From NCBI GenBank assembly GCA_003152075.1, contig PLZG01000113.1, forward strand, positions 1 to 34,213: DNA of 34,213 bases, in the 5' to 3' direction. The DNA comes from a candidate division FCPU426 bacterium. Its GTDB lineage: Bacteria > Oederibacteriota > Muellerivitia > Muellerivitales > Muellerivitaceae. The notes beneath the pieces are model-generated. The model worked only from the letters and a program-made list of their open reading frames with translations. It made no database searches and was not told the DNA's origin. Made by a program: the position numbers and the translations under genes. The first letter of the stretch is position 1. The number at the start of each line of letters is the position of its first letter. Of this stretch, positions 398-29,160 are shown in pieces.

Positions 398-1300
398 ATG
401 AGAAACGCCTTCTGCGATACCTTAATCAAGTACGCGTCCGATCCCGATTTCGTCTTTCTTACCGGCGATCTCGGCTACAACGCCTTGGAACCCCTGCAAA
501 AAGCCGCGGGTGAGCGCTTCATCAACGCCGGGATCGCCGAACAAAACATGGTTTCGGTAGCCGCCGGATTGGCCAGTCGGGGTTTGAAACCCTGGGCCTA
601 CAGCATCGCCCCCTTTATTTACGCACGCCCCTTGGAACAGGTCCGCAACGACGTCTGCCTCCACGACTTACCCGTCAAGTTGGTGGGCAACGGTGGGGGT
701 TACGCTTACGGTGTCATGGGGGGAAGCCATCACGCCATTGAGGACTACGGTATCCTGCTTTCCCTGCTCAATATGAGGGTCTTCGTGCCCGCATTTAAGG
801 CGGATATTCCTCCCATGGTCGAGAAAATGCTTCAATTGAACCATCCCGCCTATTTCCGTCTGGGCCGAGACGAGAAACCCAAGGATTTGGACATACCCTC
901 CTACGCGCCATGGCGTAAAATCTTAACGGGTCAGGGACCGACGGTCTTAATCACGGGTCCCCTGGCGGGGGGACTTTTAGGAGCTTTCAAGAATTTACCA
1001 GACGCCAAAAGACCTAACACCTGGGTCTTGACCGAATTGCCCTTTGACGCGGCGACAATTCCCGAGGATTTTTTAAAAGATGTCAAAAAAACCGGTCATT
1101 TGGTCGTGGTGGAAGAACATGTGGCCCATGGTGGGGTGGGCGAGATGATGAGCCGCTGCCTTTTACTAAGGGGGGAAAGCCCTAAACGTTTTTCCCACTT
1201 TTGCGCCCAAGGTTACCTGACGGGTTATTACGGTTCCCAGGACTTTCACCGCAAGGAATGTGGTTTGTCCGCCGAGAACATTATGAAAGAAATAGGCTAA
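398..1300 (+). CDS. Transketolase, C-terminal subunit
   Basis: The 300-residue protein has the pyrimidine-binding domain followed by the C-terminal domain of transketolase. Near residues 48-56 the motif INAGIAEQNM carries the glutamate that activates TPP in this family, and GGSHHAIED further on is also typical. With the preceding N subunit it would form a split, two-gene transketolase, a common bacterial and archaeal arrangement. The start is ATG with a weak upstream GGAA. The stop codon TAA overlaps the ATG of the next gene (TAATG), so translation of the epimerase-transferase fusion is probably coupled to this subunit. In this glycan locus it may make or extend a special sugar precursor; that role is inferred. 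Confidence 0.88.
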   Translation: MRNAFCDTLIKYASDPDFVFLTGDLGYNALEPLQKAAGERFINAGIAEQNMVSVAAGLASRGLKPWAYSIAPFIYARPLEQVRNDVCLHDLPVKLVGNGGGYAYGVMGGSHHAIEDYGILLSLLNMRVFVPAFKADIPPMVEKMLQLNHPAYFRLGRDEKPKDLDIPSYAPWRKILTGQGPTVLITGPLAGGLLGAFKNLPDAKRPNTWVLTELPFDAATIPEDFLKDVKKTGHLVVVEEHVAHGGVGEMMSRCLLLRGESPKRFSHFCAQGYLTGYYGSQDFHRKECGLSAENIMKEIG

Positions 1301-3264
1301 TGGCGACCATGGAGGAAAAGATAAAAAAACTACAGGGGCCAATCCTGGTGTTGGGCGCCAGCGGATTTATTGGGGCCAATTTATTAAGGACAATCCTGAA
1401 GGTTCGTTCGGATTGTTTTGGAACCTATTTCCATTCACCCGCCTGGCGGTTGGAAGGCCTGCCTTCCCCCAGCCTGATCCAAACGGACTTGTTGGTGGAC
1501 GCGAATTTGGATTACCTTCTAGAAACCGTTCAGCCCAAGACCGTCTTTAATTGCGTCGCCTTCGGCGCCTATTCTTTTGAGACCGAGAGCGCCCTTATTT
1601 ACCGGACCAATTTCAACCTGACCGAGAAACTGTTGAGCAGGCTGGAGCCCAAGGGCATTTCTTCTTATGTCCACGCTGGCAGTTCCTCCGAGTACGGGGA
1701 CAATGCTTCCGGCCCCCACGAGTCCGACTTACCCTCTCCCAACAGCGACTACGCCGTTTCCAAGGTGGCCGTGGCCAATCTTATTTCTTTCTATGGTAAA
1801 AAAAAGCAGTTTCCCGGTGCGAACCTGCGGCTTTATTCGGTATACGGCCCCCTCGAGGATTCGTCCCGCCTGATTCCCAAGGTTGTCAGCCATGGTGTTG
1901 AGGGCAAATATCCCGAGTTCGTGAATCCCGACATCTCCAGGGATTTCGTTTATATCGATGATGTCAACGAGGCTTTTTTTGACACTTCCCTCAACCTGAA
2001 ACCCGGCCAATATGGTGATTCCTTCAATATCGGGAGCGGCAAGAAAACGACTATTAAGGAAATCGCCCAAACCGCCGGGAAGGTTTTCGGAATCAAGGAG
2101 TCCCCCGCTTTCAACACCATGCCAAACCGCAAATGGGACGTGAGTGACTGGTTCGCCAACACGAAGAAATCTAGGGACGCCTTGGGCTGGGAAGCTCATA
2201 CTTCCTTCCTGAATGGGCTCTCTGCCACCATGGAATGGTACAAAGCCCTGGAGGACCGGGAAAAATACCGGAAATCCTCCAAGCAGTTTGAGTTGGACAC
2301 CAAGCACAGCGTCTCCGCCGTCATCGCCTGCTACAAGGACAACCAGGCTATCCCGATCATGTACGAACGCCTGAAAAAAACCTTCGACAAGATGAAAATC
2401 GACTATGAGATCATATTCGTCAACGACAACAGCCCGGACGACAGCGAAGCCCTCATCGCCGACCTTTCCCGTAAGGATCGCCGGGTGGTGGGCATCTCCC
2501 ACTCGAGGAACTTCGGCTCCCAGGCCGCCTTTCGAAGCGGTCTCGAGATTTCCACAAAAAATTCCTGCGTCCTCTTGGACGGGGACCTGCAGGACCCGCC
2601 CGAGCTCATTGAGCAATTCCTGGAAAAGTGGCGGGAAGGCTACGACGTGGTTTACGGGCGGAGGGTCAAGCGGGAGGCGCCCTTTTACATGCAAATGGCT
2701 TACAAGCTTTTTTATAGGGTCTTCCAATACTTCTCTTACATGCCCATCCCACGGGACGCGGGGGATTTTTCCCTGATTGACCGGCGGGTCGTGCGGGCCA
2801 TCCTGCAGTTCCCCGAGCGGGACTTCTTCTTGAGGGGCGTGAGGGCTTATGTCGGTTTCAAGCAAACCGGCGTGGATTACACCCGGGCCGAGCGGGCCTT
2901 CGGGCGTTCTACCAACAACTTTTTCAAGAACCTGGACTGGGCCAAAAAGGGAATTTTGTCTTACAGTTATACTCCTCTGACCATTTTAAGTTTCGCCGGT
3001 TCCCTTTTGTTCCTATTCGGCTTTGCCATCGCGGCTTTACAGGTGACCTTGCGTTTGCTCCTGCCCGACCTTGCCCCTAAAGGTGCCACCACGGTTTTGA
3101 TCGCCATCATTCTATTCGGTTCCATCAATTTGTTCGCCCTCGCTATTTTGGGTGAGTACATTGCTAAGATCTTCGAGGAAGTGAAACAACGGCCCCACTT
3201 CGTCAGACGAAGCATCGTTAAGAACGGAGAAATCCGGTCGGTCACCGATTCGAAGAATGGATAA
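1300..3264 (+). CDS. Fusion: NAD-dependent sugar epimerase/dehydratase + polyprenyl-phosphate GT2
   Basis: The 654-residue protein joins two enzymes. Residues 1 to about 325 are an extended SDR: glycine motif G19-x2-G22-x2-G25, serine region GSSSEYG near 127-133 and catalytic Y151-x3-K155. From about residue 336 there is a GT2 domain of the ArnC/GtrB/DPM kind, with the DxD-type pair D427/D429 in LLDGDLQDPPE. Two membrane segments follow (about 558-582 and 597-620), ending with the family's GEYIAKIFEEVKQRP motif. The GT2 half should load a sugar on undecaprenyl phosphate at the inner face of the membrane, and the SDR half may make that sugar's nucleotide form. I chose the ATG overlapping the previous stop; an ATG at 1309 is also possible. 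The reading frame is continuous through the linker, so this is a true fusion in this sequence. Confidence 0.85.
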   Translation: MATMEEKIKKLQGPILVLGASGFIGANLLRTILKVRSDCFGTYFHSPAWRLEGLPSPSLIQTDLLVDANLDYLLETVQPKTVFNCVAFGAYSFETESALIYRTNFNLTEKLLSRLEPKGISSYVHAGSSSEYGDNASGPHESDLPSPNSDYAVSKVAVANLISFYGKKKQFPGANLRLYSVYGPLEDSSRLIPKVVSHGVEGKYPEFVNPDISRDFVYIDDVNEAFFDTSLNLKPGQYGDSFNIGSGKKTTIKEIAQTAGKVFGIKESPAFNTMPNRKWDVSDWFANTKKSRDALGWEAHTSFLNGLSATMEWYKALEDREKYRKSSKQFELDTKHSVSAVIACYKDNQAIPIMYERLKKTFDKMKIDYEIIFVNDNSPDDSEALIADLSRKDRRVVGISHSRNFGSQAAFRSGLEISTKNSCVLLDGDLQDPPELIEQFLEKWREGYDVVYGRRVKREAPFYMQMAYKLFYRVFQYFSYMPIPRDAGDFSLIDRRVVRAILQFPERDFFLRGVRAYVGFKQTGVDYTRAERAFGRSTNNFFKNLDWAKKGILSYSYTPLTILSFAGSLLFLFGFAIAALQVTLRLLLPDLAPKGATTVLIAIILFGSINLFALAILGEYIAKIFEEVKQRPHFVRRSIVKNGEIRSVTDSKNG

Positions 3265-5034: not shown

Positions 5035-5784
5035 TTACTTGACTGACACCTTGAAAACATAAACCGCGCAAGTCAACTCCCGTAAAAGAGGAAGTCTCTC
5101 CACGAGAGGTTCAATGGTTTTCAATAAAATAGCCATCCAGTCCGGACAAAAAAACGGGACCAAACCGCGATAGCCGGACTTCTCAACCTTCCCCCCATGC
5201 TTCTCGAACCACTGGTCCAAAACGGGTGGAAAGAACGACTTTTCCTCGTGCTCAATATGATATTTGGAAAACTTTTCCAAGATTTTTAAGACTGGATTGT
5301 ATCCATTGGGTTCCACCACAATGATAGTCTGGGCAATTTTAGTCATTGCCGAGATGGCTCTTTCGGGGTCATAAAGATGGTGCAAGACTCCCCGCAGTAT
5401 AGCCACGTCGAATTTTTTGCGGAGAGAACCCACTTTATAAATATCAAGCACTTTGAACCGGACTTTTTTATTCCGGCCGGCTTTTTGGTTGGCAAGGTGA
5501 ACAGCTGCCCGGGAGGCATCCAAGCCTAATAAATAGGCCGGCTCGTCTTGAAGAAATTCCAGTGTAAAGGTCCCATCCCCCGACCCCAAGTCCACTACCC
5601 TTTTTCCCTTTAAATCAATTAATTCCCTAATTGAATTCTGCAAACATTGATTAGCATAGCGGTTTGATAATTTTTCAGTGTTGGCGTAAACATACCCTTT
5701 GTTATCGCGAACATCCTGGTCGAATTGACGGACGCTTTTCTCCTTAACCATACTTTTGATTTTTTTCACGGGGGACCACGCCAT
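5035..5784 (-). CDS. SAM-dependent methyltransferase, class I
   Basis: The 249-residue protein carries motif I VVDLGSGDGTF (G67-S68-G69-D70-G71), the acidic strand-2 end GLDASRAA and the post-motif LRGVLHHLYDPERA. The HHLYDP and VVEPNGYNP motifs suit methyltransferases acting on small molecules or glycans. The chosen ATG at 5784 has GAGG only one base upstream, which is too close to be ideal; the methionine at 5751 is an alternative. It is the last gene of the minus-strand run that starts near 20143, 27 bases after the first tailed membrane transferase. Substrate unknown. Confidence 0.75.
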   Translation of the reverse strand: MAWSPVKKIKSMVKEKSVRQFDQDVRDNKGYVYANTEKLSNRYANQCLQNSIRELIDLKGKRVVDLGSGDGTFTLEFLQDEPAYLLGLDASRAAVHLANQKAGRNKKVRFKVLDIYKVGSLRKKFDVAILRGVLHHLYDPERAISAMTKIAQTIIVVEPNGYNPVLKILEKFSKYHIEHEEKSFFPPVLDQWFEKHGGKVEKSGYRGLVPFFCPDWMAILLKTIEPLVERLPLLRELTCAVYVFKVSVK

Positions 5785-5811: not shown

Positions 5812-8466
5812 TCAATGAACGGCGGATATGGCCGGGTTTTGTCCCAAGAAACTCAACGGAACATCAAGGGCTCCGCCAATGGACACCATGACTGGGGGAA
5901 TGAACTGGTCATGCTGGAGCCAAATATCATATTCAACCCGATGAACCCCCGCGGTCAGGTTCATTTTTCCGGAGGCCGCCACCGGGGGCCAAAAGGGATT
6001 CAAATAAATGATTTGCCGGCCATCCACCCGTAATTTAACGAAATCGTTGGTCTTCACCTTGAAAACCACTTGGTCGGTTGTTGGAATGTATATGTTTCCC
6101 TTGAGGTTTACCAAGCGGCCACCCATTCCAAAGGCGATAGGGTCAAAGGGATTGGATAGTCTTTCTTCCATCTCGATCACACCGTAACCCAAGATATAAC
6201 GGCCGACCAAATAATCCCTGGTCCAATAATCGGCGGGAACCCTCTGAAAATAAAACATTTGGTCAGCCTTATCCGTGATCTCCGAAGCCGGAATGATGGC
6301 TCTGCGGAAAGTCGGCCGGATGTCTTTCCAACCATCCAGGTTAATGACATCCCATTGGACATTTTTGTATTGCTTTTCGATCTTGGTTCTATTCAAGTCA
6401 TCGCCAATATACATGAGAACCACTGCGTCCTTGGGGTTCTCCCCGGGATTCAAGTAAATAGGATTCTTGTCTTTCTGAAGATAAACGTCATAGCCCTGAT
6501 CCAACACGGCTTGGACAACGGAAGAAACGAAAAGGGGGTAGGGGGCGATGAACACCTTGGCCCTTGGGGAAAACTTCTTGATCTGAAGGGAAACCGTCTT
6601 TTCAACCCTGCACCCCACGAAAAAAGTATCAATAGTTTTGCCGGAAGTTCCCCAAATCGCCCAGGCGAAATAAGCGGCCAGGACCGGCACCGCCAAAAAC
6701 CTGGTTAGGCTTCCGGATGTGGCTGTTTTGAACGCCGAATAAACCTGCTGGACCCCCATGCCCCCCAAAACAGCCAGCGGGGCGACACAGCAAATCAATT
6801 TTCCGCTGTGCGGGTCAATTGAAAGGACGTGGGGGGAAATTCCCACGAGCCCGGCGATGAGAAAGAACCCCGTCATCCAGTTTGGCCGAACCAAAAACGA
6901 CACCAACCCAAGGACAAGTATGGGGATCATGTGGTAATCAAAAAAGGCGTCGCCGGCCAGGTTCATGTCCCCGCGATCCTCTCCACCGATAAAGACCGTG
7001 CGAAGGGTGTCGGCCAGTTTTTCCACCAAAAGCTTGAAGGAGTCGAGGCCAAAGTGGACAGCCAGGCTGCTGTCGTGGCTGTGAAAGATGGAGAGTCCGG
7101 AGGCATGAACCGCGATCAACGGCTGAATGGCAATGGGATAAACCGCCAAAGCCGCTAAAGATACGCCGGCGAAAAACCGGGGAACCAGGGAGGAGCGGGG
7201 TTCGGAAAGCGACTTGAAAAAGAAAAACAAGAGGACTGCGATGACAGCGATACCCACCCAGCCGCGGCTTAAAAAGGACACCCAGAAGCTTTGCTTAGGG
7301 AGGAAATTATTTACCAGCAAAAAGCAGAAGGCCCAGGCCAGGAGAGTTCCCCAGCCCAACAAAATATCCCATTTCCCCCTTCCCTCTTTTCGTTGGCCAA
7401 ACCAAATCCAAAGAAAAACCGCTGTCACGATGAAAAGAAGCCAGGGGCGAACGGAGGTGTAATTGTAGGGCGCGAAACCTAGGGCGAGTCCCCAAAAAAC
7501 AAATTGCTTCCAATCGGGATTCTTGAATAACCTAACGGTGGTGAACAAAACCAACGCCACGGCCATGGGACCCGTGACATGGGCATTTCCGGTAACACTG
7601 GCGATGATCATGGGCTTACTGACCGCCCCAAGGGCCGCCGCCACCAGGCCGACCCGTCGCCCACCCACTTCCTTTCCTACCAGGTAAAAGAACCATACCG
7701 CCGCGAGGTCAATGATCGCGCCTCCCAACCTGTGGACAAAAACCGCGTAGGCGTTCGGCATGAACGACCATAATGCGGCGAGGAAATAACAATAAAAAGG
7801 CTCCCGGTTCGCGATCGGCATGAGAAAAGGCCGCTCATGAAATTCGAGAATACTCCTCGCGTCAATGGCGCTTACAACACAATCGTCCCAATAAATTCCA
7901 GCCGCCTCATGGGCCTTATACATCCGAAAATAAAACGCCACCGCCATAATGATCCAAAACCAGACCCGCGCCCAACCTTTCGAAATGTCCTGGGAGGGAT
8001 CCACGGGTGGGAAAAATCTCCAAAAGGCGATGAGTAAACCCGACCCCAACGCGAAAGTCATCAAAGGATTGGGGATTTGGTGGCCGGGCCAAAACGAGAA
8101 AAACTGGCTAAAGTTAGGATTGGTTCCTAAGGCAAAAACCACCAACACCCATCCCAATCCAACCAAAAATAATGTGTATCTTAAGTTGCTCAAATTTAGA
8201 AAATAAGACGCGCCGATGAGGATAGCGATCGCCAAGAAAACCTTTTCGGCTTGGGGATAATGACTCGCCGAGCAATAGAACCACAAAAGCACGGCAATGG
8301 TCAACAAAACCAAGGTCCAGCCCGAGGGAGAAATAGCCAGCCCGGGTTTTGGGGGATTGGCAGGGGACTCGGAAAAAGGTTGGGCACTTTCAGCGGATCG
8401 AGCAACAACCTTTTTTTTACCGCGCGAAGGCTTGTTTTTTCTTTTCGAAGGCATTATGGAAGCCAT
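5812..8466 (-). CDS. ArnT/PMT-like membrane glycosyltransferase (GT39-like) with PA14-like C-terminus
   Basis: The 884-residue protein begins with a basic tail (MPSKRKNKPSRGKKKVV) and then has about a dozen membrane segments. The first outer loop carries Y-W-D194-D195; in GT39/ArnT/PMT enzymes an Asp (often Asp-Glu) in this loop is the catalytic site, using a polyprenyl-phosphate sugar donor. After the last membrane segment comes a soluble module with NPIYLNPGENPKDAVVLMY, then FYFQRVPADYW, then a beta-rich region (about 795-870) with RVDGRQIIYL and LTAGVHRVEYD, which looks like a PA14-type sugar-binding domain. Three more genes upstream share this architecture. The start may instead be the methionine five residues in (8454); neither has a clear ribosome site. 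Acceptor and sugar are unknown. Confidence 0.75.
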   Translation of the reverse strand: MASIMPSKRKNKPSRGKKKVVARSAESAQPFSESPANPPKPGLAISPSGWTLVLLTIAVLLWFYCSASHYPQAEKVFLAIAILIGASYFLNLSNLRYTLFLVGLGWVLVVFALGTNPNFSQFFSFWPGHQIPNPLMTFALGSGLLIAFWRFFPPVDPSQDISKGWARVWFWIIMAVAFYFRMYKAHEAAGIYWDDCVVSAIDARSILEFHERPFLMPIANREPFYCYFLAALWSFMPNAYAVFVHRLGGAIIDLAAVWFFYLVGKEVGGRRVGLVAAALGAVSKPMIIASVTGNAHVTGPMAVALVLFTTVRLFKNPDWKQFVFWGLALGFAPYNYTSVRPWLLFIVTAVFLWIWFGQRKEGRGKWDILLGWGTLLAWAFCFLLVNNFLPKQSFWVSFLSRGWVGIAVIAVLLFFFFKSLSEPRSSLVPRFFAGVSLAALAVYPIAIQPLIAVHASGLSIFHSHDSSLAVHFGLDSFKLLVEKLADTLRTVFIGGEDRGDMNLAGDAFFDYHMIPILVLGLVSFLVRPNWMTGFFLIAGLVGISPHVLSIDPHSGKLICCVAPLAVLGGMGVQQVYSAFKTATSGSLTRFLAVPVLAAYFAWAIWGTSGKTIDTFFVGCRVEKTVSLQIKKFSPRAKVFIAPYPLFVSSVVQAVLDQGYDVYLQKDKNPIYLNPGENPKDAVVLMYIGDDLNRTKIEKQYKNVQWDVINLDGWKDIRPTFRRAIIPASEITDKADQMFYFQRVPADYWTRDYLVGRYILGYGVIEMEERLSNPFDPIAFGMGGRLVNLKGNIYIPTTDQVVFKVKTNDFVKLRVDGRQIIYLNPFWPPVAASGKMNLTAGVHRVEYDIWLQHDQFIPPVMVSIGGALDVPLSFLGQNPAISAVH

Positions 8467-8524
8467 CCAGTCGATTAAATAGACAGAACGTTAACATTAA
8501 TTAAAAAATACTCTTGTGGCGTTT

Positions 8525-9544
8525 TTATTTTTGTCCCGGAATTTTGTAAATCGTCACGTTATCGCCCCCGCAAGTTAGGATCATATCGTCCGAGGTGATG
8601 TCGATTCCGCTGAAATTGACAAGTTTTCCGGGCTCGGCTTCGTCGGTTAAGACCCCCAATAAATTCCCGGCAGAGTCAAAAACCCTCACATCATTGCCGC
8701 ATCCAACGTAAAGCCTTTCTTTCGAATCCAAAGCCAGGAAAGAGGGAGATCCTTCTGTTTTGGTGGATCGGAGAACCTGTCCCAATTGATCAAAAACTTG
8801 AATCCGGCCTTTTTCGTTGATCAGGCCGCAAGCGTAATAATGACCCTTTCCGTCGCCAATGGCCCCACCCACGTTTCCAATTTCATCCTTACCCGCCCAC
8901 GTGCTTAAAAGATCCCCCGCGAAAGATAAGCGAACCAGGTGAAAGTTCCCCCCGTTAGGAATCATGAGGCAGTCCCCACCCCATCCAACGTATCGGGGCC
9001 CGTAAAAAAAACCGAAATGGGCCAGGTCCAGGACTTTCTTGAGTTTCCCGTTTACGTCAAAAACTTTAATCGCGCCATTCCAAGTGTCCAAGACATAAAG
9101 GTTTCCCTTGCGATCGCTGGTAATTCCGGAGGGTTCATTAAACTCATTGGGGGCCTTGCCAGACTTTCCCCCCCATTTCCGGATGAGCTTGCCTTTAAAA
9201 TCGTACTCTAGGACCTGGCAACCCGGAGAATCGGTGACGGCAAGCAGGTTGGGGCCGATTGCGGCGACAGCTGTTACAAAAAAAGTTTTACCCGGGGAAG
9301 GATTAAGGCTGAATTGGGCAACTTTTTCCAGCGGAAAATCCTTTGGCTTTGAGTGCACGCCGGTTTTAAATAGACTGGGGCCGTACAAAACCCCGAGAAT
9401 AATAAGAACTAGGATGAAAAATTTCTTAAAAGAGCCGCTTCCAGAACCGTTAACGGAAGAACTTGCGGGAGGCGGGGCAATGACAGCCTTCGGGGCAGCA
9501 CTTCGTTGCTTCGAAGATACTTTTTTTGATGAACGACGAGCCAT
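8525..9544 (-). CDS. Membrane-anchored NHL-type beta-propeller
   Basis: The 339-residue protein has a basic Ser/Lys-rich tail (MARRSSKKVSSKQRS), a single membrane segment near residues 39-59, and then a periplasmic six-bladed propeller built from NHL-like repeats such as NEPSGITSDRKGNLYVLD and SPSFLALDSKERLYVG. NHL propellers usually bind proteins or glycans and need no catalysis. The start is well supported: GGAGG lies five bases before the ATG. It stands between two of the tailed ArnT-like genes on the same strand, and a paralogue occurs at 23840-24808. The role may be scaffolding or acceptor binding for the transferases; that is inferred from position and the shared tail type. Confidence 0.75.
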   Translation of the reverse strand: MARRSSKKVSSKQRSAAPKAVIAPPPASSSVNGSGSGSFKKFFILVLIILGVLYGPSLFKTGVHSKPKDFPLEKVAQFSLNPSPGKTFFVTAVAAIGPNLLAVTDSPGCQVLEYDFKGKLIRKWGGKSGKAPNEFNEPSGITSDRKGNLYVLDTWNGAIKVFDVNGKLKKVLDLAHFGFFYGPRYVGWGGDCLMIPNGGNFHLVRLSFAGDLLSTWAGKDEIGNVGGAIGDGKGHYYACGLINEKGRIQVFDQLGQVLRSTKTEGSPSFLALDSKERLYVGCGNDVRVFDSAGNLLGVLTDEAEPGKLVNFSGIDITSDDMILTCGGDNVTIYKIPGQK

Positions 9545-9634
9545 AAAGCCTCCATTTTTGGTATTAAACCAGGAAAAACCAGACTAAATAAAACCATAAA
9601 GTTAATAAGTTTCCTCGCCGCCCGCATTATGCCA

Positions 9635-12133
9635 TTACTGGTGCTTACTTTCCACGGGAGGTTGGCCCAAAACCCATTGTCCCCCGCTTCCCGCGGGGGG
9701 CGTCACCAAAACATCCGTAAATGTAAAGGTGTGCCGAAAAGCCGTCTTTAAGGTCACCTGATGGACCCCTGCTTTAAGATAAATATTTTCCTTGGCTGAC
9801 AAACCAGACCACAAGTGCATCCTTTGCTTCCCATCAATCAAAAGGATGATAACATCCTTGGCTTGACTGATTAAAAAATTATATTCCCCATCGGTGGGAA
9901 CGGTTAATTGGCCATCCACTTGGGCGGTAACACTCTCATTCACAAAGGAAGGTATATGATCTTGAACCGTTGGAACCCGGTCATCCCACCAAATCATTCC
10001 CCTTGCGATACCATAGGACCCATACGCCATATAAAAGCGCCTCCGCCAATATTCATGGGGAACCCGTTGTACATAAAGAATCTTTCCCGGAACTTCATCC
10101 AGACTTGCAAAAGGAATTAAAACCCTCTCCATAAAATTGGGGCCATTGAGGCTGGGTACCCCTGTCCACTCGGCCTGAGGAAATTCTTTTCGAACCCTTT
10201 CCTGCGTGGCTTTGTCCCCACCATAAACCAACAAAATGATGTCCTTTTCCTTCTGACCCGGCTCCAGGTAAATAGGGTTAGGATCGTTCAAACGCCATGC
10301 GTCTTTTTGGTCACAAAGCATAGGAAAAGCCGGTCCGACGAAATCAGGAAGTTGTTGGGCAAGGATCACCTTATATTGCTTCCAATCCTTGTTTACTTGT
10401 GAGCCAATAATGGGGTCATTCTTGGTTTGAGTTGTCATCCATTTCTGACAAAGGTCAAAACTCCATTTTGCGTCCCAAGCCCAAAGGCTTAACAGCAACA
10501 AGAAAGCTACCTTTCGAAGGATGTCGCTTTTCGCCTTCAAGGAAAAAAGTTCCCAAAAAGCGTCCAAACCCCATCCTCCCAACAGGTACAAGGGCGCAAC
10601 CGCCCCCAGCAACCGTCCGGTGTGATCTTGGTTAGAAAGAATGAAAGGAACCATTCCAACAAGCGCTATCAGAAGAACAAAGCTTTTTCGACCGGAGGGC
10701 CGAGAGAGGAAGTAAGCCAGGCCAACCACCATGGCAAGTTCTGAAAAACTTTCAAAGAAGGAGTGCCCAAGACAATGGGTCGTTTCGGTCAAATCGGTGG
10801 CGGTAAAAACCGCCCCCAGGGTAAAAACAATCTTGAACCAAAGTAATTTAAGGGTGGCCAAACCCAATATAAGCTTTCCGTTTTCGTGGAAAATTGAGAT
10901 GGTGGTTGAGTAAGAAGAATAAAGGGGATGCAACAACAAGGGCGACATCAAAAGGGCGGTCAAACCGGCGCCCGTTGCCCACCCAAAAACCTTTCGATTG
11001 GCCTCACTTTCTTTGGCTCCAATCCATGTCTTGATATAGACGGCCACTAGGATCACGGCTACCGCTCCCAGGAACCAAGGGCTGACGATAAAAGCTGCCC
11101 CTGAGCTCAAGGGCAAAAAATTATTCTTGTAAAAAAATAGAATGGCCCAGGACAACCAGAGTCCCGCCGCTAAAACCCAAGGCCATACCCCCTTGACCTT
11201 CTCTTTAGAACCGAAAAGAACCCAAATCAGGACGATTGAGATCATCGTCGGGGTCCAAGGGCGGGACATGGGATAACAATAGTCCCCGAAAGCAAGCGCA
11301 ATCCCCCAAAAAGCAAAATGCTTCAAGGTCGGTTTTTGGATTACCCGGTAAAAGAAAAATAACGCCCAGACACAAGCTAATACGGTCGAGTTGATTCCGC
11401 AGCCATAATAAGGCCAGATCATACCGGCCCTAGAAAGGGCCTCGAATGCCATCATGATCAGCCCCATCCTTCGCCCGCGAATAGCACTTCCCAAACGGTA
11501 AAGTCCCCAAATAACCCCCAAATCCATGAGTGTGCAGCTCAATCGGGTAATCCAGACACCTGAAGCCTTCGGAAATATTTCCCAGAGGGCCGCGGTAAAG
11601 TAGGAAAAAAAAGGAGGCCGGGAGGAAATAGGGAATAACAAGGGACGCTGTTTAAAATCAATGATATTTCGAATATCACCGGTGGTGATAAGATTGTCCG
11701 CCCAAAAAAAGGGCGAGGATTCTTCCGGCCGGTAAAAGCGGCTGAAAAAGCAAAGGCCAAAAAAGAAAGCGAACCAAAGGTAGGCCAACCACCGAGGCAT
11801 CTCAGAACGGTCCGTTTCCTTAGGTAAATAGTGGAAAGCGGCGACTAATCCAGCAAAACCCAAAAACAAGAGTGATGGATGCGTCAATAGACGGGCTAAG
11901 AAACTATCCGGCGGCAAAAGAAGATGGTAATTCGGGAGTGAATAAAACCCTACTACCGTTAAAGCCAAAGCTCCCAAGAGAAGATAGGCTCCTCTGGAAG
12001 ACTTTTCTAATAATAACGGAACCGCCACATTTGGCACCCCAATTTCGGGTCTTTTATTCCCTTTTTCCTTTGGTCTTATGCCCCGCATAACCTTCTTCGC
12101 GGAGGATGCTCTCTTTTTTTTGGCGGGACCCAT
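9635..12133 (-). CDS. ArnT/PMT-like membrane glycosyltransferase with PA14-like C-terminus
   Basis: The 832-residue protein starts with the basic tail MGPAKKKRASSAKK. The first membrane segment is followed by YSLPNYHLLLPP, a motif shared with two neighbours. About a dozen segments follow. The first large outer loop has W144-A145-D146 where other family members have W-D-D, keeping the second aspartate. The C-terminal part has NDPNPIYLEPGQKEKD, a YVQRVPHEYWRRRFY motif and a PA14-like region with LLIDGKQRMHL and LKAGVHQVTLKT. The start is supported by TGAGGT four bases before the ATG, the same signal as the next gene upstream. Similarity to the 12349-14823 protein runs along the whole length, so the pair arose by tandem duplication. 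Sugar and acceptor are unknown. Confidence 0.75.
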   Translation of the reverse strand: MGPAKKKRASSAKKVMRGIRPKEKGNKRPEIGVPNVAVPLLLEKSSRGAYLLLGALALTVVGFYSLPNYHLLLPPDSFLARLLTHPSLLFLGFAGLVAAFHYLPKETDRSEMPRWLAYLWFAFFFGLCFFSRFYRPEESSPFFWADNLITTGDIRNIIDFKQRPLLFPISSRPPFFSYFTAALWEIFPKASGVWITRLSCTLMDLGVIWGLYRLGSAIRGRRMGLIMMAFEALSRAGMIWPYYGCGINSTVLACVWALFFFYRVIQKPTLKHFAFWGIALAFGDYCYPMSRPWTPTMISIVLIWVLFGSKEKVKGVWPWVLAAGLWLSWAILFFYKNNFLPLSSGAAFIVSPWFLGAVAVILVAVYIKTWIGAKESEANRKVFGWATGAGLTALLMSPLLLHPLYSSYSTTISIFHENGKLILGLATLKLLWFKIVFTLGAVFTATDLTETTHCLGHSFFESFSELAMVVGLAYFLSRPSGRKSFVLLIALVGMVPFILSNQDHTGRLLGAVAPLYLLGGWGLDAFWELFSLKAKSDILRKVAFLLLLSLWAWDAKWSFDLCQKWMTTQTKNDPIIGSQVNKDWKQYKVILAQQLPDFVGPAFPMLCDQKDAWRLNDPNPIYLEPGQKEKDIILLVYGGDKATQERVRKEFPQAEWTGVPSLNGPNFMERVLIPFASLDEVPGKILYVQRVPHEYWRRRFYMAYGSYGIARGMIWWDDRVPTVQDHIPSFVNESVTAQVDGQLTVPTDGEYNFLISQAKDVIILLIDGKQRMHLWSGLSAKENIYLKAGVHQVTLKTAFRHTFTFTDVLVTPPAGSGGQWVLGQPPVESKHQ

Positions 12134-12348
12134 TATTACCTCAATGAAATCATTACTAGATCGAACGGCCTAAAGAAAAGATAAAAAACTGACGGGCGTG
12201 ATTGACTTTACCATCCTTTTAGATGGGAAACAAAGACTTTAATCCAAAGCCGAAAAGACAGGGGATAAAAGATTATAAAGTGAAAGAATCTTAAGCGGAT
12301 GAGAGCCGGCAGCGTTTTACGAAAAACTTTTCGAGAGCGATCAACGGC

Positions 12349-14823
12349 TTAACGGGCGGTGCCCAAATTCCACTCTTTGTCGCCGTTGGGGGGTGTCACA
12401 AGAATATCCGTGAAATTATACCTGGATCGGAAGGCAGTCTTGTAAACCACTGGGTGGTCCCCGGCTTTCAGAAATACTTTTGCCTTGGCTGGAAGGCCGC
12501 CCCTTTGGTTTAAAATATTCTTGCCGTCAATGGATAAAAAAATGACATCCAAAGTCTGGCTGGCCGAAAAACAATATTCTCCATCAACTCGAACCATCAA
12601 TTCCCCGTCTGCTTCGGCGCTAACATGGGCGTCGATCCCCGGCGGAAAAGCCGCGTTGAACGCGGGCACCGAGTCCTCCCACCACACCATTCCCCTCGCA
12701 ATACCATAGGGATAATCGGCCCAATAAAATCTCCTCCGCCAATATTCACGCGGTATCCTTTGAACATAAAGTAACTTACCTGGAACTTCTCCCAAACTGT
12801 CAAAAGGAATGAATATCCTATGCAAAAAATTGGGGCCGTTGAGGCTGGGAACATCCGTCCATTGAGCCATGGGGAATTCCTCCCGGACCCTTTTGGCTGT
12901 GGGTTCATCCCCGCCGTACACGTACAAAACAATGTCCTTGCTCTTTTCCCCCGGTCCCAAATAAATTGGGTTGGGATCGTTTAAAAGCCAGGCGTCCCTT
13001 TGGTCGCATAGCATAGTAAATTGGGGTTGGAAAAAATTTGAATCGTGACGGGCGAGGATCACCCGGTATTGCTTCCAATCCTTTTCCAATTGCGCCCCAA
13101 TAACGGCGTCATTGGTGGTCCGGTAGGTCATCCATCCCCGGCCCAGGACGATACCGGTTTTCGCGTCCCAAGCCCAAAAACCAAAAAGCAACAGGAGCGC
13201 CGCTGTCCGCCAAACTCCATTTTTCATTTCACGGGTGAAAATTCCCCAAAAAGCATCCAGTCCCCAGGCGCCCATCAGGAAAAGGGGGGCGACCGCACCA
13301 AATAACCTTCCGGTGTGCGGCCTCTGGCTTAAAATAAAAGGGAGTGTTCCAACCAGAATCATGAGAATGAGAAAGTTCTTGCGCCAAGAAGGTATTGCGA
13401 GGAAATAAGCCAGTCCCACCACCATGGCCATTTGCGGAAAAACCTCAAAAAAGGAATGACCGGGGATCGGATAGCGGGAAAAATCCGGCTCAGAGGTGGA
13501 GAAAATCACGTGAAAGGCGTAAGTGACATTTGGCCAAATTTCCTTAAATACGGACAACAGTTTCGAGGAATTGTCGCCCAGCAGGAATACCGAACGGTTG
13601 GCCATGTAGTCGGAATAGAGGGGATGGAACATCAAAGGCCACATCAAAATCCCCGTCACCAATACGCCCGTGGCCCAGCCAAAAATTTTCCGGTTCCCTT
13701 CACTTTCACCTATTTTAGACATGCTCTTAAGATAAGCGGCCAGCAAGACGATGAGCGCCGCTCCTAGAAACCAGGGTTTTACCAATAGGCTGGTCCAAGG
13801 ACCCGGGGGAAGAAATTTATTTGTATAGACAAACAGATAAAGCCAGAAAATCCAAATTCCGACTGATAGAAGCAAAGGCGCGCCTCCCTTAGGTCTTTCC
13901 TTGGGGTTGGAATAAATCCAAAGCAGGATGAGAGTAATCAGGGTCGGGGTCCAAAGACGGAAGGGAGCATAGGTATAATCCCCGAAGGCCAAGAGGATTC
14001 CCCAAATAATAAAATTTGCCATGGATGGTTTTTGGACCAATTGGCAAAAAACCAGCAAGGTAAGGGCGCAAGCTAAAATAACCGAACTCGCCCCATATCC
14101 GGAGTAGGCCCAGATGGTCCCAGGCATCGAAAGGGCCCAAAAGGACATCATGATAAGCCCTGTTCGCCGACCGTTAATGCCGCGCCCCAGGACATAAAGG
14201 GACCAAAGGACCCCGATGTCGATAAAAGTTGAGCTTAACCTGGTGATCCAAAGGCCCGAGGCCTTCGGGAAAATATCCCAAAGGACCACAGTGAGGTAAC
14301 GGGCGAAAGGCTGGGGTGAGCCATAGGGAAAGATCAGGGAATATTGGTGAAAATCCATTGCGCTTCGGATGTCGCCCGTCACCATGAGTTGGTCGACGAA
14401 AAAATAAGGCGGGGCTTCTTCCGGGTGATAGAAGCGGCTGAAAAAACAAAGGCCGGAAAAAAGGGAAAACCAAATATAAACCCATCCCAGGGGAATATCC
14501 TCCGGCTGGTCCGAAAAATCGGGAAAAGTCCGAAAGAGCAGGAACAACCCTATGAAGCCAACCAATAATAGGGATGGATGGACCAGCCAATGGTCTAGGA
14601 TGCCGCCCGGCGTCAAAAGAATATGGTAGTTGGGCAAGGAAAAAAGACCCGCCACGGCTAGGGCCAGAGATCCCAGAAGGCTATAGACGGCCCAAAGGCT
14701 TTTACGCTCCGGCGCGGGAGCCGGGGTTTCGATCTTTAAATCCGGGCCCTTTCCCCCTTTCCGGCGGGGAGCCGAAGCGGTTTTCTTGGGGGACAATTTC
14801 CTCTTTTTTTTGGCGGGACTCAT
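12349..14823 (-). CDS. ArnT/PMT-like membrane glycosyltransferase with PA14-like C-terminus
   Basis: The 824-residue protein starts MSPAKKKRKLSPKK and resembles the 9635-12133 protein from end to end, including FSLPNYHILL after the first membrane segment, NDPNPIYLGPGEKSKD, YVQRIPREYWRRRFY and a PA14-like end with LSIDGKNILN and LKAGDHPVVYKTAF. The catalytic-loop position reads F142-V143-D144, so the first aspartate and the tryptophan of the W-D-D motif are both changed while the second aspartate is kept. The start at 14823 is preferred over an in-frame ATG at 14898 because TGAGGT lies four bases upstream and the protein then begins exactly like its paralogue. A 215-base gap without clear genes separates it from the next gene downstream. 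Confidence 0.75.
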   Translation of the reverse strand: MSPAKKKRKLSPKKTASAPRRKGGKGPDLKIETPAPAPERKSLWAVYSLLGSLALAVAGLFSLPNYHILLTPGGILDHWLVHPSLLLVGFIGLFLLFRTFPDFSDQPEDIPLGWVYIWFSLFSGLCFFSRFYHPEEAPPYFFVDQLMVTGDIRSAMDFHQYSLIFPYGSPQPFARYLTVVLWDIFPKASGLWITRLSSTFIDIGVLWSLYVLGRGINGRRTGLIMMSFWALSMPGTIWAYSGYGASSVILACALTLLVFCQLVQKPSMANFIIWGILLAFGDYTYAPFRLWTPTLITLILLWIYSNPKERPKGGAPLLLSVGIWIFWLYLFVYTNKFLPPGPWTSLLVKPWFLGAALIVLLAAYLKSMSKIGESEGNRKIFGWATGVLVTGILMWPLMFHPLYSDYMANRSVFLLGDNSSKLLSVFKEIWPNVTYAFHVIFSTSEPDFSRYPIPGHSFFEVFPQMAMVVGLAYFLAIPSWRKNFLILMILVGTLPFILSQRPHTGRLFGAVAPLFLMGAWGLDAFWGIFTREMKNGVWRTAALLLLFGFWAWDAKTGIVLGRGWMTYRTTNDAVIGAQLEKDWKQYRVILARHDSNFFQPQFTMLCDQRDAWLLNDPNPIYLGPGEKSKDIVLYVYGGDEPTAKRVREEFPMAQWTDVPSLNGPNFLHRIFIPFDSLGEVPGKLLYVQRIPREYWRRRFYWADYPYGIARGMVWWEDSVPAFNAAFPPGIDAHVSAEADGELMVRVDGEYCFSASQTLDVIFLSIDGKNILNQRGGLPAKAKVFLKAGDHPVVYKTAFRSRYNFTDILVTPPNGDKEWNLGTAR

Positions 14824-14827
14824 ATTT

Positions 14828-14833
14828 ACCTCA
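14828..14833 (-). promoter_or_regulatory. Ribosome binding site deciding the start at 14823
   Basis: Read on the minus strand, TGAGGT is followed by AAAT and ATG. The paralogous gene has the same TGAGGT plus four bases before its ATG at 12133. This supports trimming 25 residues from the longest possible reading. Confidence 0.6.
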
Positions 14834-14923
14834 AATATAAATCGGATTTCAACTTGGCCCATCGCTTCAAAAAAACCACGGTCCAAACTCAACTTCACTA
14901 GAAGTCATTTCATAAATCCCATG

Positions 14924-15067
14924 ACCCTCGCCCCCTGGCTTTGGTTTTGAGGGTACATAGGGGTTCTTCCCTATGAGAGCTTTTCGGGAGATGGGTAGGA
15001 TGAGGGGTGTGAAAAACACGGCATATCCCCCACCCTCACACCGGCCCTCTCCCCTCGACGGAGAGGG
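14924..15067. repeat. Intergenic region with nested hairpins, repeat family C
   Basis: The 338-base gap between 14824 and 15161 holds no gene that I can support. It contains several inverted repeats: CATAGGG at 14956-14962 with CCCTATG at 14969-14975; ACCCTC at 14924-14929 with GAGGGT at 14949-14954; GGTGTGA near 15006 with TCACACC near 15036; and CCCTCTCC at 15045-15052 with GGAGAGGG at 15060-15067 (perfect 8 bp, 7-base loop, followed by an A-run). The last resembles the C+T-rich palindromes scattered in many environmental genomes. The block could act as a processing or termination structure between two transferase genes. Confidence 0.6.
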
Positions 15068-15161
15068 GAAAAAGCGGAAAAACCAATTTATTAAATGACT
15101 TCTAACCTATCAAACTGTCAGATAAGTAAACCTTCCATAAAAAATTTTTAAAAATTATGCC

Positions 15162-17669
15162 TCAGCGCGGAGCCGTGCGGGAGACCAAGTCATCCAAAGG
15201 TTCTTTGGAAGCTTGACCAGGTCGGCTAATGTAAACGGTAGTAAAACGGAGTTCACTGCTGAAACAGTTCAACATTTTCACTTGGTGGGGACCCGCTTTT
15301 AGGAAGACCTTCCGGGTTTTATCGTTGAAATTGTCCCCCGGGAAAAGGTTGATGACTTTTTTCCCGTCAATGAAAAGCCACAAGGCGTTGCCGGAAGAAA
15401 GGGATAAAACATACTCCCCCTCGCTAGCGACATTCCATACTCCCTCCACACTGGCCGTAGCATGGTCCCATTCGTAAGGCTCGGGCTTGGTCACCGGTAG
15501 CGAATCATTCCAATGGTTCGCCAAGTCGTTATGTAGGATGAGTCCGCGACCCATTCCGTAACGGCCATAAAAACAACGGTGCCATAAAGTCGGCGAGGCG
15601 AATTGAAGCGTAAATAAGCCGTTGTCATTTTTTTCCAGCCGGTCAAAGGGAACGATCATCCCTTTGAGAAAAGGTACGCCTATTTGATCCTCCCAATAAA
15701 TATAGCGTTTGAACCAGGGAAGACCGGGAAAGGCTGTTTCCATTTTTTTCTGGATGTCTAAATCCTTTCCGGACACCATCACCACCAAGTCCTTTCCTTT
15801 TTCCCCAGGGGCTATTTCAATGATATTTGAGTCGTTCATCCGGTAGATATCCTTGTTATCACAGAGAATATCCTGGGAAGCGGTGTAAAAAACAGGGCGG
15901 AAAGGCCGCAAATAAACCCGATGGGCAGGCCATTGTTCCTCCACAGCTGCGGCCGCCACCGAATCGGGCCCCTTCTGGGCCATCCACTCGGCTAGAAGTT
16001 TGGAATTCCGGTCCACTTCCCAGCCGCAAAAGAAAAGAAGGAAGGCGGCGCAGGCCATGTTCCCACCTTTAGTCGGGCCCGTTTGGAGATAAGCCAGCCA
16101 CAGCCGGTTTAGTCCCCAGGCTCCGGTCAACAGGACCGGCAAGACAATGGCTTCCAACCGGAACGGGTGGGGGTTAAAGGTAAAAATATAGGGCACCATT
16201 CCCACGAGATATAGGAGCAGGACAAAGGCCTTGAGCCAGGTGGGACGGGCGGCGAAATAAGCCAAGCCCAGGAGCCCGCAAACAGCCGCGTAATAATCAA
16301 ACCATGAGTCACCGGCGGCGGGTAACCGGCCCACATCGTCGAATTTGCCGAACATGAAATAATGCCCCATGATGAAATGACCCCATAAATAACCCAGGGG
16401 CCCTCCGCCCGCGCCAGGATTTTTGGCGCTGCCGGCGAAGGCCGTGAAAATATCCGCGACGTGTTCCGAATAATGGGGATGGAGATATAAGGGCGTCATG
16501 ACAAGGGCTGTGGCTAGGGCCCCGGTGGCCCACCCCAAAAGTTTAGTTGGCCCCTTTTCTCGGTTTTCCAGAAAAACCCTTCCATAACTGACGGCTAAAA
16601 GCGCGGCCACCAATGTCAAGGCCAGGGGGCTGGTTAGGAAAATCACCGTTCCATTTTTTTCAGGGAGGAACATATTCTTGTAAAAGAAAAGAAAGGCCCA
16701 AGCCGCCATGAGACCCGGACCCAAGATGACCCGGAAAAAGTTCCAGACTCTCTCCCGAGAATCGCTGAAAACCCATAACCACATGCATCCCAGGATGACC
16801 GGCGTCCAAACCCGGAAGGGTACGTAAGAATAAGCTCCAAAACCTAAGGCGGTTCCCCACTCCAGGAAATGGATCCAATCCGGCTTCTTGAGGACTCGGA
16901 GGAAAAAAAGAAAGGTGAGGGCGCAACCCAGTACGGTCGTGCCTGAACCATATCCGAACTTGCAAATCATGATCATTTCCTTGCTGATGGCTCCCATGGC
17001 CATCAGCAGGATTCCCATCCGGCGTCCTCCGATTTCCTTGCCGATGAGGTAAAAAATCCAAAGCGTGGTCAGGTCAATAAGTGTGGAGCTGAGCCGAATG
17101 ACGAAAACTCCCGTCGAGTGAGGCAGAAACTCCCATAACAAAGCGGAAAAATAAGGATAAAGGGGTTCGCGCCAGCCGAATGGAAATAAAAGGGGATGGT
17201 TGTGAAAATCCACGATGCTGCGAATGTCCGAAACCACGACATAATGGTCGTCCCAAAAAAAGTTGGCGGGTTCTTCTGGCCGGTACAACCTCATCGCCGC
17301 ACCCAGGCCTAATAAAACCCAGAACCAAACTCGGGCTGTTAGCGGGGAAAAATCCAACGAGTCTTCCCGGGTAACCGGAACCATGCGCCAAAGAACAGCC
17401 ATGGCGCCCAATCCCGCCAATAAAAACCACCGGGTGGGAACGTTGCCAAAGGGGTATCCTTCAGGAAGCAATTGGCGGTAGTTGGGCAAGGAAAAAAAAC
17501 CAATCATTACGATTGCCCAAGCCGTTAACAAATAATAAAACTTATCCCGGTTAAGATGCGCGGGAACGGAAATTTCCGGAACCGCCATGAAACCAGGAGG
17601 CTTAGGGCGGGGGGCCCGGACCTTCTTATTGGTTTTACTGGGCTTGAGGGTCTTCCGTTTTGCCGGCAT
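15162..17669 (-). CDS. ArnT/PMT-like membrane glycosyltransferase with PA14-like C-terminus
   Basis: The 835-residue protein has the basic tail MPAKRKTLKPSKTNKK, then FFSLPNYRQLLPE after the first membrane segment, as in the two paralogues downstream. The first outer loop keeps the full W139-D140-D141 motif followed by SDIRSIVDFHNHPLL. The soluble part has a more divergent NDSNIIEIAPGEKGKD module and a PA14-like end with LFIDGKKVINLF and LKAGPHQVKMLN. The ATG is preceded by AGGAGCGG at a suitable distance, and a candidate promoter with a perfect TATAAT lies about 50 bases upstream, so this gene may head its own transcript. Predicted to transfer a polyprenyl-phosphate-linked sugar on the outer side of the inner membrane; substrate unknown. 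Confidence 0.75.
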   Translation of the reverse strand: MPAKRKTLKPSKTNKKVRAPRPKPPGFMAVPEISVPAHLNRDKFYYLLTAWAIVMIGFFSLPNYRQLLPEGYPFGNVPTRWFLLAGLGAMAVLWRMVPVTREDSLDFSPLTARVWFWVLLGLGAAMRLYRPEEPANFFWDDHYVVVSDIRSIVDFHNHPLLFPFGWREPLYPYFSALLWEFLPHSTGVFVIRLSSTLIDLTTLWIFYLIGKEIGGRRMGILLMAMGAISKEMIMICKFGYGSGTTVLGCALTFLFFLRVLKKPDWIHFLEWGTALGFGAYSYVPFRVWTPVILGCMWLWVFSDSRERVWNFFRVILGPGLMAAWAFLFFYKNMFLPEKNGTVIFLTSPLALTLVAALLAVSYGRVFLENREKGPTKLLGWATGALATALVMTPLYLHPHYSEHVADIFTAFAGSAKNPGAGGGPLGYLWGHFIMGHYFMFGKFDDVGRLPAAGDSWFDYYAAVCGLLGLAYFAARPTWLKAFVLLLYLVGMVPYIFTFNPHPFRLEAIVLPVLLTGAWGLNRLWLAYLQTGPTKGGNMACAAFLLFFCGWEVDRNSKLLAEWMAQKGPDSVAAAAVEEQWPAHRVYLRPFRPVFYTASQDILCDNKDIYRMNDSNIIEIAPGEKGKDLVVMVSGKDLDIQKKMETAFPGLPWFKRYIYWEDQIGVPFLKGMIVPFDRLEKNDNGLFTLQFASPTLWHRCFYGRYGMGRGLILHNDLANHWNDSLPVTKPEPYEWDHATASVEGVWNVASEGEYVLSLSSGNALWLFIDGKKVINLFPGDNFNDKTRKVFLKAGPHQVKMLNCFSSELRFTTVYISRPGQASKEPLDDLVSRTAPR

Positions 17670-20825: not shown

Positions 20826-21854
20826 TCAGACACCGTACTTTTTCCAATCGAGTTCGATGGGTTTACCCTTTTGGGCCAGGGATTGGGTGGCCGCTTCGAG
20901 GATATGGACGATTCTCAACCCCGCCTTACCGTCAGAGGGTGCCTTCTCCCCCTTTTGGACGCAATTGATAAAAAGGTTGGCTTCCCGCTGAAGGGCCTCG
21001 GTCATGTCCAGATGGGGGGCCCAAATATCGCCAGTCCGGTAATCCACCATGAGGCGGTAAATTCCCTCGGGCTTGTCGTTGAAAACCACGCCCTTATCGT
21101 AAACCTTCACCTTCTCGGTAACCTCCACGTCGTCGTAAACAATCATTTGCTTGTCGCCGCCAATTAATGTTTTGCGCATCTTGACCGGGGCCAGCCAGTT
21201 GGCGTGAATATGGGCGATCAGGCTGTCCTCGAAAAAACAAGTGAGATAGGCGATATTTTCAGGCTCTCCCGCAATATTGGAGATTCCCGTGGCCGCGACC
21301 ATGGTGGGCCTCTTGTCCAAAACGAAATCCATGATGGAAAGGTCGTGCACGGCCAGGTCCCACATCACGTTCACGTCGTGCTGGAAGAGGCCCAGGTTAA
21401 TTCGAACCGAATCGTAATAATAAATTTTCCCAAGCCGTCCGGTTTCGATTAATTCCTTTATCTTCAGAACCGCGCCGGTATAGATGAAAGTGTGATCCAC
21501 AAAAAGAACCCGCTTGCGCTTTTCGGCCTCTTCAATAAGTTCCATGGCCTGCGCCGTGCTGGAGGCCAAGGGTTTTTCCATGAAAACATGCTTACCCGCC
21601 CGTAAGGCCCTCAAGCCAAGGTCATAGTGGGTGAGAACGGGCGTGGCGATGGCGACGGCTTCAATGGCCGGGTTGTTAAAGACATCCTCAACCCGGGAAG
21701 TGGTTTGAATGGCGGGATAACGTTTCTGGACTTTAGCCAAATTCTCGGCCTTCAAATCGGCCACCATCAAGACCAGAGCGTCGGACGTTTCCTGGAAATT
21801 ACGGACAAGATTGGGACCCCAGTATCCGTAACCAATGATGCCCATTTTTAACAT
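20826..21854 (-). CDS. Gfo/Idh/MocA-family NAD(P)-dependent oxidoreductase
   Basis: The 342-residue protein starts MLKMGIIGYGYWGPNLVRNF, a dinucleotide fold with G8, G10 and G13. The family motif E93-K94-P95 (HVFMEKPLASS) and the D166-x3-H170 pair (MWDLAVHDLSIMDF) that supplies catalytic residues in WlbA-type sugar dehydrogenases are present. Such enzymes oxidise or reduce hydroxyl/keto groups of nucleotide sugars in O-antigen pathways. An in-frame ATG at 21914 would add 20 residues before the fold, so I prefer 21854, although neither start has a good ribosome site. It is the last gene of a minus-strand group with DPM1-like, GT9 and propeller genes. A decayed copy of its 3' end is at 17827-17997. 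Confidence 0.85.
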   Translation of the reverse strand: MLKMGIIGYGYWGPNLVRNFQETSDALVLMVADLKAENLAKVQKRYPAIQTTSRVEDVFNNPAIEAVAIATPVLTHYDLGLRALRAGKHVFMEKPLASSTAQAMELIEEAEKRKRVLFVDHTFIYTGAVLKIKELIETGRLGKIYYYDSVRINLGLFQHDVNVMWDLAVHDLSIMDFVLDKRPTMVAATGISNIAGEPENIAYLTCFFEDSLIAHIHANWLAPVKMRKTLIGGDKQMIVYDDVEVTEKVKVYDKGVVFNDKPEGIYRLMVDYRTGDIWAPHLDMTEALQREANLFINCVQKGEKAPSDGKAGLRIVHILEAATQSLAQKGKPIELDWKKYGV

Positions 21855-21966
21855 GATGGAGTTTTTGCCTTTTGAATCGATTGAAGAACCCAAAAATTCC
21901 GCTTTTGGAATCATTTCTTAATTCGAGGAATTTTAACATAAAGAATAACATCTACCCATGCCCTCT

Positions 21967-22683
21967 TTATTCGAAACCCAGGCCAAGCCTTAATAAAAGC
22001 GCCTTGCCCAGGTACTTTAAAAGGGTCGGCAGGGCTAATTTCGAGGTTCCTTGGGTTCGGTCCACAAACTCAATGGGTACTTCTTTCACCCTTAGGCCCA
22101 AGCGATAACAGCGGAATAAAATTTCGGAAACCGTGAAAGGGTCCCGGGCTTTCAAGGTTTCAACTCGGATGGTTTGGAGGGTGGTTTTTGTAAAGGCCCT
22201 GAAACCCGAAGTGGGGTCGGCTGCCCTTAAACTCAAAACCAGCTTTAAATAAAGTTTAGCCAAATTGCTAGTAAGTTGCCTATGAAAAGGCCGGTCCATG
22301 TCCTTTCCGCCCGGGACATAGCGACTCCCAATGACCACGTCAGCCTCACCCTTCAGGAGGGGAGCAACCAACGCAGGAATAAATTTGGGTTGATGTGACA
22401 AGTCCCCGTCCATTTCAACGACCAAGTTAGCTCCCATAGCCAGGGCCTTCACAAAACCATCCCGGCCAGCCCAACCCCTGCCTTTAATGGAACGGTCCCT
22501 TAGCAGGAGGTGAAGCCGCTTGTCCTTTTTCATTAACTCTTGGACTTCCTTAAAAGTCCCGTCAGGGGAGGAATCGTCCACGATTAAAACCTGCGCGCTC
22601 GGCGCGCTCTTGTGGATGGATTTGATGAGGTTAGTGATGTTGGCCCGTTCGTTGTAAGTGGGCACCATGATGAAGGTTTTCAA
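21967..22683 (-). CDS. Polyprenol monophosphomannose synthase-like GT2 (DPM1 type)
   Basis: The 238-residue protein is a soluble GT2 of DPM1 type: MVPTYNERANI at the N-terminus, LIVDDSSPDGT with D36/D37, and EMDGDLSHQP with the metal-binding D92-x-D94, then VVIGSRYVPGG. It lacks C-terminal membrane segments, as expected for short DPM1-like enzymes. It should transfer a sugar, classically mannose from GDP-mannose, to polyprenyl phosphate on the cytoplasmic face, giving donors for ArnT/GT39-type transferases like those nearby. The start is TTG and overlaps the stop of the GT9 gene (TTGA), so the two are translationally coupled. The sugar used is not certain. Confidence 0.85.
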   Translation of the reverse strand: MKTFIMVPTYNERANITNLIKSIHKSAPSAQVLIVDDSSPDGTFKEVQELMKKDKRLHLLLRDRSIKGRGWAGRDGFVKALAMGANLVVEMDGDLSHQPKFIPALVAPLLKGEADVVIGSRYVPGGKDMDRPFHRQLTSNLAKLYLKLVLSLRAADPTSGFRAFTKTTLQTIRVETLKARDPFTVSEILFRCYRLGLRVKEVPIEFVDRTQGTSKLALPTLLKYLGKALLLRLGLGFE

Positions 22684-23810: not shown

Positions 23811-23839
23811 GACTTGCTCCCCGAGGTTTTAATTAAGTT

Positions 23840-26043: not shown

Positions 26044-26048
26044 AATTG

Positions 26049-26103
26049 CTGTCATTTCGAAGAGTGTCCCGCAAATAGGGACGTTCACGACGAAGCAACC
26101 CCA
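26049..26103. repeat. Degenerate family B repeat with hairpin between convergent genes
   Basis: The stretch has the word gtcatttcgaa near 26051 and cgacgaagcaa near 26089, which echo the family B repeat at 32761-32827. In the middle GTCCC (26066-26070) pairs with GGGAC (26078-26082). It fills the 77-base gap between converging gmd and methyltransferase genes and could serve as a terminator for both. Confidence 0.5.
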
Positions 26104-26120
26104 GTTTAAATAAGCTTTTT

Positions 26121-26915: not shown

Positions 26916-26916
26916 T

Positions 26917-27663: not shown

Positions 27664-27796
27664 TAAAAAAGGACTCCCGGTTTGTTAATAAAGGCAAAAT
27701 GGAGAAACAGTTTATCATTGTTCATAAAATTTGGTAGGATTTATCCGCCTTAGCGGCATACCCCCTCTTTCGGGGATTATTTAAGGAAAACACCCA

Positions 27797-29035: not shown

Positions 29036-29049
29036 AACTAACCATTTGA

Positions 29050-29160
29050 ACCACCAAGACACCAAGGGCACCAAGTAAGACAAAGAATCGCAAAATAAAA
29101 ATTTTTATCCTTGGTTTTTCCCCTTAAGTCTTTGGTTTTCTTGGCGCCCTTGGTGTCGGT
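29050..29160. repeat. Long imperfect palindrome, family A (copy 2)
   Basis: The left arm at 29050-29077 (core caccaagggcaccaag) matches copy 1 at 256-283 and pairs with 29138-29160. The right arm is shortened compared with copy 1 and the AT-rich loop differs in sequence. Like copy 1, it begins shortly after a stop codon and lies between two genes of the same strand. Confidence 0.75.

Follow-up and report, generated by a model that had tools for sequence, protein, structure and literature searches.

A set of GT-C/GT39-like transferases with PA14-like C-terminal tails in a glycan locus of the candidate phylum FCPU426

Some GT-C glycosyltransferases are known to contact their acceptors through additional carbohydrate-binding domains. 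In the GT136 enzyme ORF12 of Citrobacter youngae O1 a GT-C core is followed by a C-terminal extracytoplasmic beta domain, a carbohydrate-binding module (CBM) that binds the acceptor O polysaccharide, and the CBMs of the mycobacterial EmbC and AftD also contact their acceptors (PMC11127046). Under the conditions of that study ORF12 kept its activity without the CBM (PMC11127046), and a tail of this kind need thus not be essential. Here we describe an array of paralogous putative transferases in which the C-terminal domain is of another class, PA14. The array resembles ORF12 in having a GT-C-like core with a C-terminal beta domain and a probable polyprenyl-phosphate sugar synthase alongside (in the case of ORF12, an epimerase is found in the related O2 locus), but the ORF12 module is immunoglobulin-like, its gene is single instead of being part of a paralogue set and its donor is a pentofuranose. 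EmbA/B/C and AftD are similar in combining GT-C enzymes with carbohydrate-binding modules and in that several paralogues build one polymer, whereas their CBM folds and GT families are different, and we know of no NHL partner for them. With the bacterial PMT_2 proteins of the ArnT kind (GT39/GT83-like) the array shares the PMT_2 homology and the motif of an Arg, a loop-1 Asp and then a Pro, and differs by the added PA14 tail and by the replacement, in four proteins, of the Glu of the DE motif. Finally, the tail is similar in fold and profile to the PA14 domains of RsgI3, GH31 alpha-xylosidase, MpPA14 and Flo/Epa, although it is located on a membrane transferase and does not have the calcium-binding DcisD motif found in the lectins. 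The first-pass annotation of this DNA knew of no described system of this form. That was too strong, since GT-C enzymes with acceptor-contacting C-terminal carbohydrate-binding domains have been published (PMC11127046); the principle is already described, and the PA14 version varies an established enzyme design in a new way. No description of a PA14-GT39 fusion was found in the openly licensed literature searched, nor of the multiplication of the PA14 form or of its pairing with NHL proteins.

We analyzed a window of 34,213 nucleotides, the whole of the stretch studied, from contig PLZG01000113.1 (assembly GCA_003152075.1). Its main features are collected in Table 1. The annotated array of four minus-strand genes encoding proteins with a common order of blocks was borne out by the ORF calls, by homology over the full length and by the motifs, with two amendments: the run is interrupted by an NHL beta-propeller gene between its first and second members, and a fifth GT39-like gene, P0006, has to be added, which has the core, only some of the mid block and no tail. 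The layout common to P0001, P0003, P0004 and P0005 is a membrane core followed by an alpha/beta block and a PA14 tail (approximately residues 110–560, 570–720 and 725–832 in P0003), with about 13–14 membrane segments and an N-terminus rich in K/R according to hydropathy and model helices. Identities to P0003 were 31, 53 and 36% for the other three, far above chance, the value of 53% being that of P0004. The family profiles for core, mid block and tail scored 706, 234 and 155 bits on P0001, which is itself among the profile members. The (I/V)DG(K/R)...LxAGxH block is present in all four proteins. NPIYLxPGExxKD was found in three, one of them with Q replacing E, while the fourth reads 'NIIEIAPGEKGKD', and FxxQRxPxxYW is easily recognized in three of the proteins, with P0005 carrying an altered form. 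The shorter length of 824 residues first given for P0004 arose because the start was taken at an inner in-frame ATG that reads 'MSPAKKK'.

Table 1. Features of the PA14-tailed transferase array and of the surrounding locus (positions in the window)
Feature	Positions	Strand
Fusion of an SDR epimerase with an ArnC/PgfS-like GT2 (polyprenyl-phosphate sugar synthase type), probably makes the donor	1201..3264	+
SAM methyltransferase, on the strand of P0001 and 27 bp away from it	5035..5784	-
P0001, GT-C/GT39-like transferase, core, mid block and PA14-like tail, 884 aa	5812..8466	-
P0002, NHL beta-propeller protein, N-terminal anchor, possible partner	8525..9544	-
P0003, GT-C/GT39-like transferase with PA14 tail, 832 aa	9635..12133	-
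P0004, paralogue nearest to P0003, 849 aa (GTG start) or 824 aa (ATG start)	12349..14898	-
P0005, paralogue, 835 aa	15162..17669	-
P0006, GT39-like without tail, canonical DE motif, 687 aa	18080..20143	-
GFO/IDH oxidoreductase, GT2, GT9 and second NHL propeller (P0007)	20826..24808	-
Two GDP-mannose 4,6-dehydratase-type genes, GT2, SAM methyltransferase, C-methyltransferase	25051..30191	

The GT39-like nature of the core was supported at the level of sequence. Against the curated Pfam PMT_2 cut-off of 26.1 bits, P0003 reached 27.2 bits, being the sole pass among the four tailed proteins of the window, and the tail-less P0006 reached 31.9. P0005 (22.5 bits) and P0001 (E 9e-5) remained under the cut-off, P0004 gave no PMT_2 match of its own, and 27 of 36 aligned relatives matched at E<=0.01. 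An Asp in the first extracytoplasmic loop (Asp146 in P0003 numbering) is invariant in all 36, distant members of the phylum included, and Arg132 is nearly so. The stretch of P0003 with Arg132, Asp146 and Pro174 is similar to the loop-1 signature of GT39/ArnT. In the four tailed proteins another residue takes the place of the Glu in the usual DE motif (DC, DN, DQ and DH), and the canonical DE is kept in P0006 and in many relatives of the phylum. The fold was not settled by the full-length model, which was weak (pLDDT 61, pTM 0.42, from a shallow alignment of 8 sequences); its best matches among membrane proteins were GT-C oligosaccharyltransferases with E values of 7e-4 to 3e-3 and low TM-scores, such as STT3 (8b6l chain I, E 6.7e-4) and AglB (3wak, E 2.6e-3). 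The core of the tailed proteins is likely GT-C and Asp146 is a likely candidate for the catalytic base.

The PA14-like character of the tail was confirmed by Pfam, by a profile search of the PDB and by modelling. Pfam PA14 was over its cut-off in P0003 (25.0 bits) and P0005 (24.2 bits), reached only E 0.03 in P0004, did not match P0001 and was found in 22 of the 36 relatives. A profile of 23 family members retrieved PA14 domains from the PDB at E values between 4.3e-12 (6qdi) and 1e-4 (MhPA14 and GH31), with RsgI3 at 2.3e-11. The C-terminal model (pLDDT 82.7, pTM 0.79), a beta-sandwich domain located after the last membrane helix, was similar to the PA14 domains of alpha-xylosidase, Cea1, RsgI3, Flo, Epa and MpPA14 (Foldseek E 8e-6 to 3e-4, probability 1.00).

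PA14 lectins bind sugar via a calcium held by two consecutive Asp, the DcisD motif (PMC8092209, PMC6650083). Asp136-Asp137 of MhPA14 align with 's-n' of the tail profile, and none of the 34 tails examined had DD at this position. A role as calcium lectin was therefore rejected, and binding of sugar in the manner of lectins is unsupported. However, the GH3 and GH31 enzymes encoded in this genome have PA14 domains with loops equally devoid of DD, so that its absence alone need not speak against contact with sugar, which may be calcium-independent. PA14 domains on glycan-active proteins often touch carbohydrate or shape the sugar pocket. The earlier proposal that the tail binds the glycan or the acceptor is plausible and has the precedents cited at the outset, with the calcium site of the PA14 lectins missing from the tails examined.

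Each of the eight family genomes (G000–G007) has the complete module of core, mid block and tail, mostly as several adjacent copies, and the tailed genes vary in number and identity from one genome to another. More distant PMT_2 and PA14 fusions are spread over at least seven further families of the phylum, and a minimum of three genomes from outside the phylum (G145, G262 and G120) carry them as well. A fusion special to the window can thus be discarded, and the co-occurrence of the tail with GT39 cores that was to be sought in other genomes is seen across the phylum and in these genomes outside it. In G262 and G120 (loci L085 and L086) two PA14 domains precede the GT-C core. The home genome (G000) has nine PA14 matches, six in GT39-like transferases (two in the array) and two in the GH3 and GH31 enzymes. 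Fusions appear elsewhere in this genome too: a second cluster (L023:9822-16440, contig C31) codes for three PMT_2 and PA14 proteins and adjoins YfhO-like and spermine-synthase-domain proteins. The scan of the genome contigs gave a single related locus, in the sister genome. There, the relative of P0003 (L057:6696-8972) has its frame disturbed near the tail by N bases in the assembly.

The paralogue tree showed three old clades that span several genera, one of them containing the recent pair P0003/P0004. P0001 pairs with its orthologue in the sister genome G001 (64% identity), which is inside a conserved locus, and P0005 falls in a clade (support 88/89) to which five other genomes contribute proteins. 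Such old and separate clades speak for different roles. The first-pass annotation had proposed four versions for different linkages, and of this the different roles are likely; the tree bears on roles and not on linkages.

The surroundings of the array indicate a glycan locus. The GT2 part of the epimerase-GT2 fusion scored 223.7 bits against PgfS and 163.6 bits against ArnC, covering almost their full length but falling short of the equivalog cut-offs (500 and 529), and the other part is a NAD-dependent sugar epimerase/dehydratase domain. Copies at 71–85% identity lie close to the array in both G001 and G005, the one in G005 as a single ORF of 653 aa. This fusion probably makes the donor. Directly upstream there is a transketolase-type pyrimidine-binding half-protein (398-1300, plus strand), kept at the same place in G001 (87% identity) and G005 (72%). 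The GT2-GT9 pair is found at 71–83% identity near the arrays of G001, G005 and G006, with NHL beside the pair in two of them. By their content, the genes at 25051..30191 would serve sugar supply and decoration. Beyond them, a GH125-type alpha-mannosidase (30870-32741, minus strand) adjoins an ORF of 204 aa (30204-30818). Overall, the donor-synthase, GT2, GT9, GMD and methyltransferase neighbours are partly conserved in relatives. No match to PF04138, the family of the GtrA-type flippase that belongs to three-component systems (synthase, flippase, GT-C), was found in the home genome.

NHL genes directly adjoin tailed transferases in six of the eight family genomes. NHL propellers are unusually abundant in the home genome: matches to the repeat number at least 120, and open frames of 3400 and 4336 aa contain some of them. 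A single adjacency means little with such numbers, and it is the repetition across genomes that counts. A search of the openly licensed literature for NHL paired with glycosyltransferase family 39 gave nothing relevant.

We consider that the most probable reading, with a probability of roughly 0.6, is the assembly of a glycan at the outer face of the membrane from polyprenyl-phosphate sugars by paralogous GT-C enzymes whose PA14 tail would position the acceptor. On the outer side of the cytoplasmic membrane the paralogues would transfer the sugar from its polyprenyl-phosphate carrier to a glycan of the envelope, to an exported one or to a glycoprotein, the donor coming from the neighbouring epimerase-GT2 fusion. 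Several results count against this reading: three of the four tailed proteins do not reach the PMT_2 cut-off, all four have the Glu of the DE motif replaced, the full-length model is poor, the tails lack the DcisD site and the genome has no match to the GtrA-type flippase family. The membrane core would hold the donor, with Asp146 as the probable base in catalysis. The alpha/beta mid block appears to be part of a wider enzyme family, since parts of it are shared by the tail-less P0006, and the PA14 domain would be a modular addition, most likely packed near the active site, that positions or gauges the acceptor. We infer that the paralogues work at different steps, alongside the membrane-anchored NHL propellers. 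A broader version, in which sets of GT-C enzymes with calcium-independent PA14 gauges and NHL propellers that dock or hold the chain form a system across the phylum, the tail picking the intermediate that each enzyme extends, is speculative and in our opinion improbable.

Other explanations are compatible with part of these data. The same GT-C transferases could use the PA14 tail as a structural element or for docking to a protein, either the NHL propeller or an acceptor protein, and bind no sugar with it. The lack of the DcisD site and the repeated position of NHL genes beside the tailed transferases agree with this, but PA14 domains of glycan-active proteins so often deal with carbohydrate, and the glycosidases of the same genome lack DD as well, that we find it rather unlikely. 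Much less credible is that these proteins no longer transfer sugars and serve as membrane sensors or transporters. Their divergence from the curated PMT_2 family and the loss of the Glu of the DE motif would fit, but an Asp146 without a single exception and the conserved context of glycan synthesis speak against it.

The variation in number and identity of tailed genes within one family, together with a pair as recent as P0003/P0004, could also reflect a lineage-specific expansion of largely redundant paralogues that would provide variation of the envelope glycan instead of distinct steps of its assembly. Old clades that are represented in several genera and the maintenance of the P0001 orthologue in the conserved locus of the sister genome speak against redundancy of this sort, and we judge it somewhat unlikely too.

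In the preferred reading, the acceptor-positioning tail on an outer-face enzyme, these data suggest that acceptor-contacting tails of GT-C transferases also arose with another domain class, PA14, and that in an uncultured phylum the PA14-tailed transferases have expanded to sets of genes. They provide targets, defined by sequence, for asking whether the role of such a tail is binding, control of chain length or the docking of a partner.
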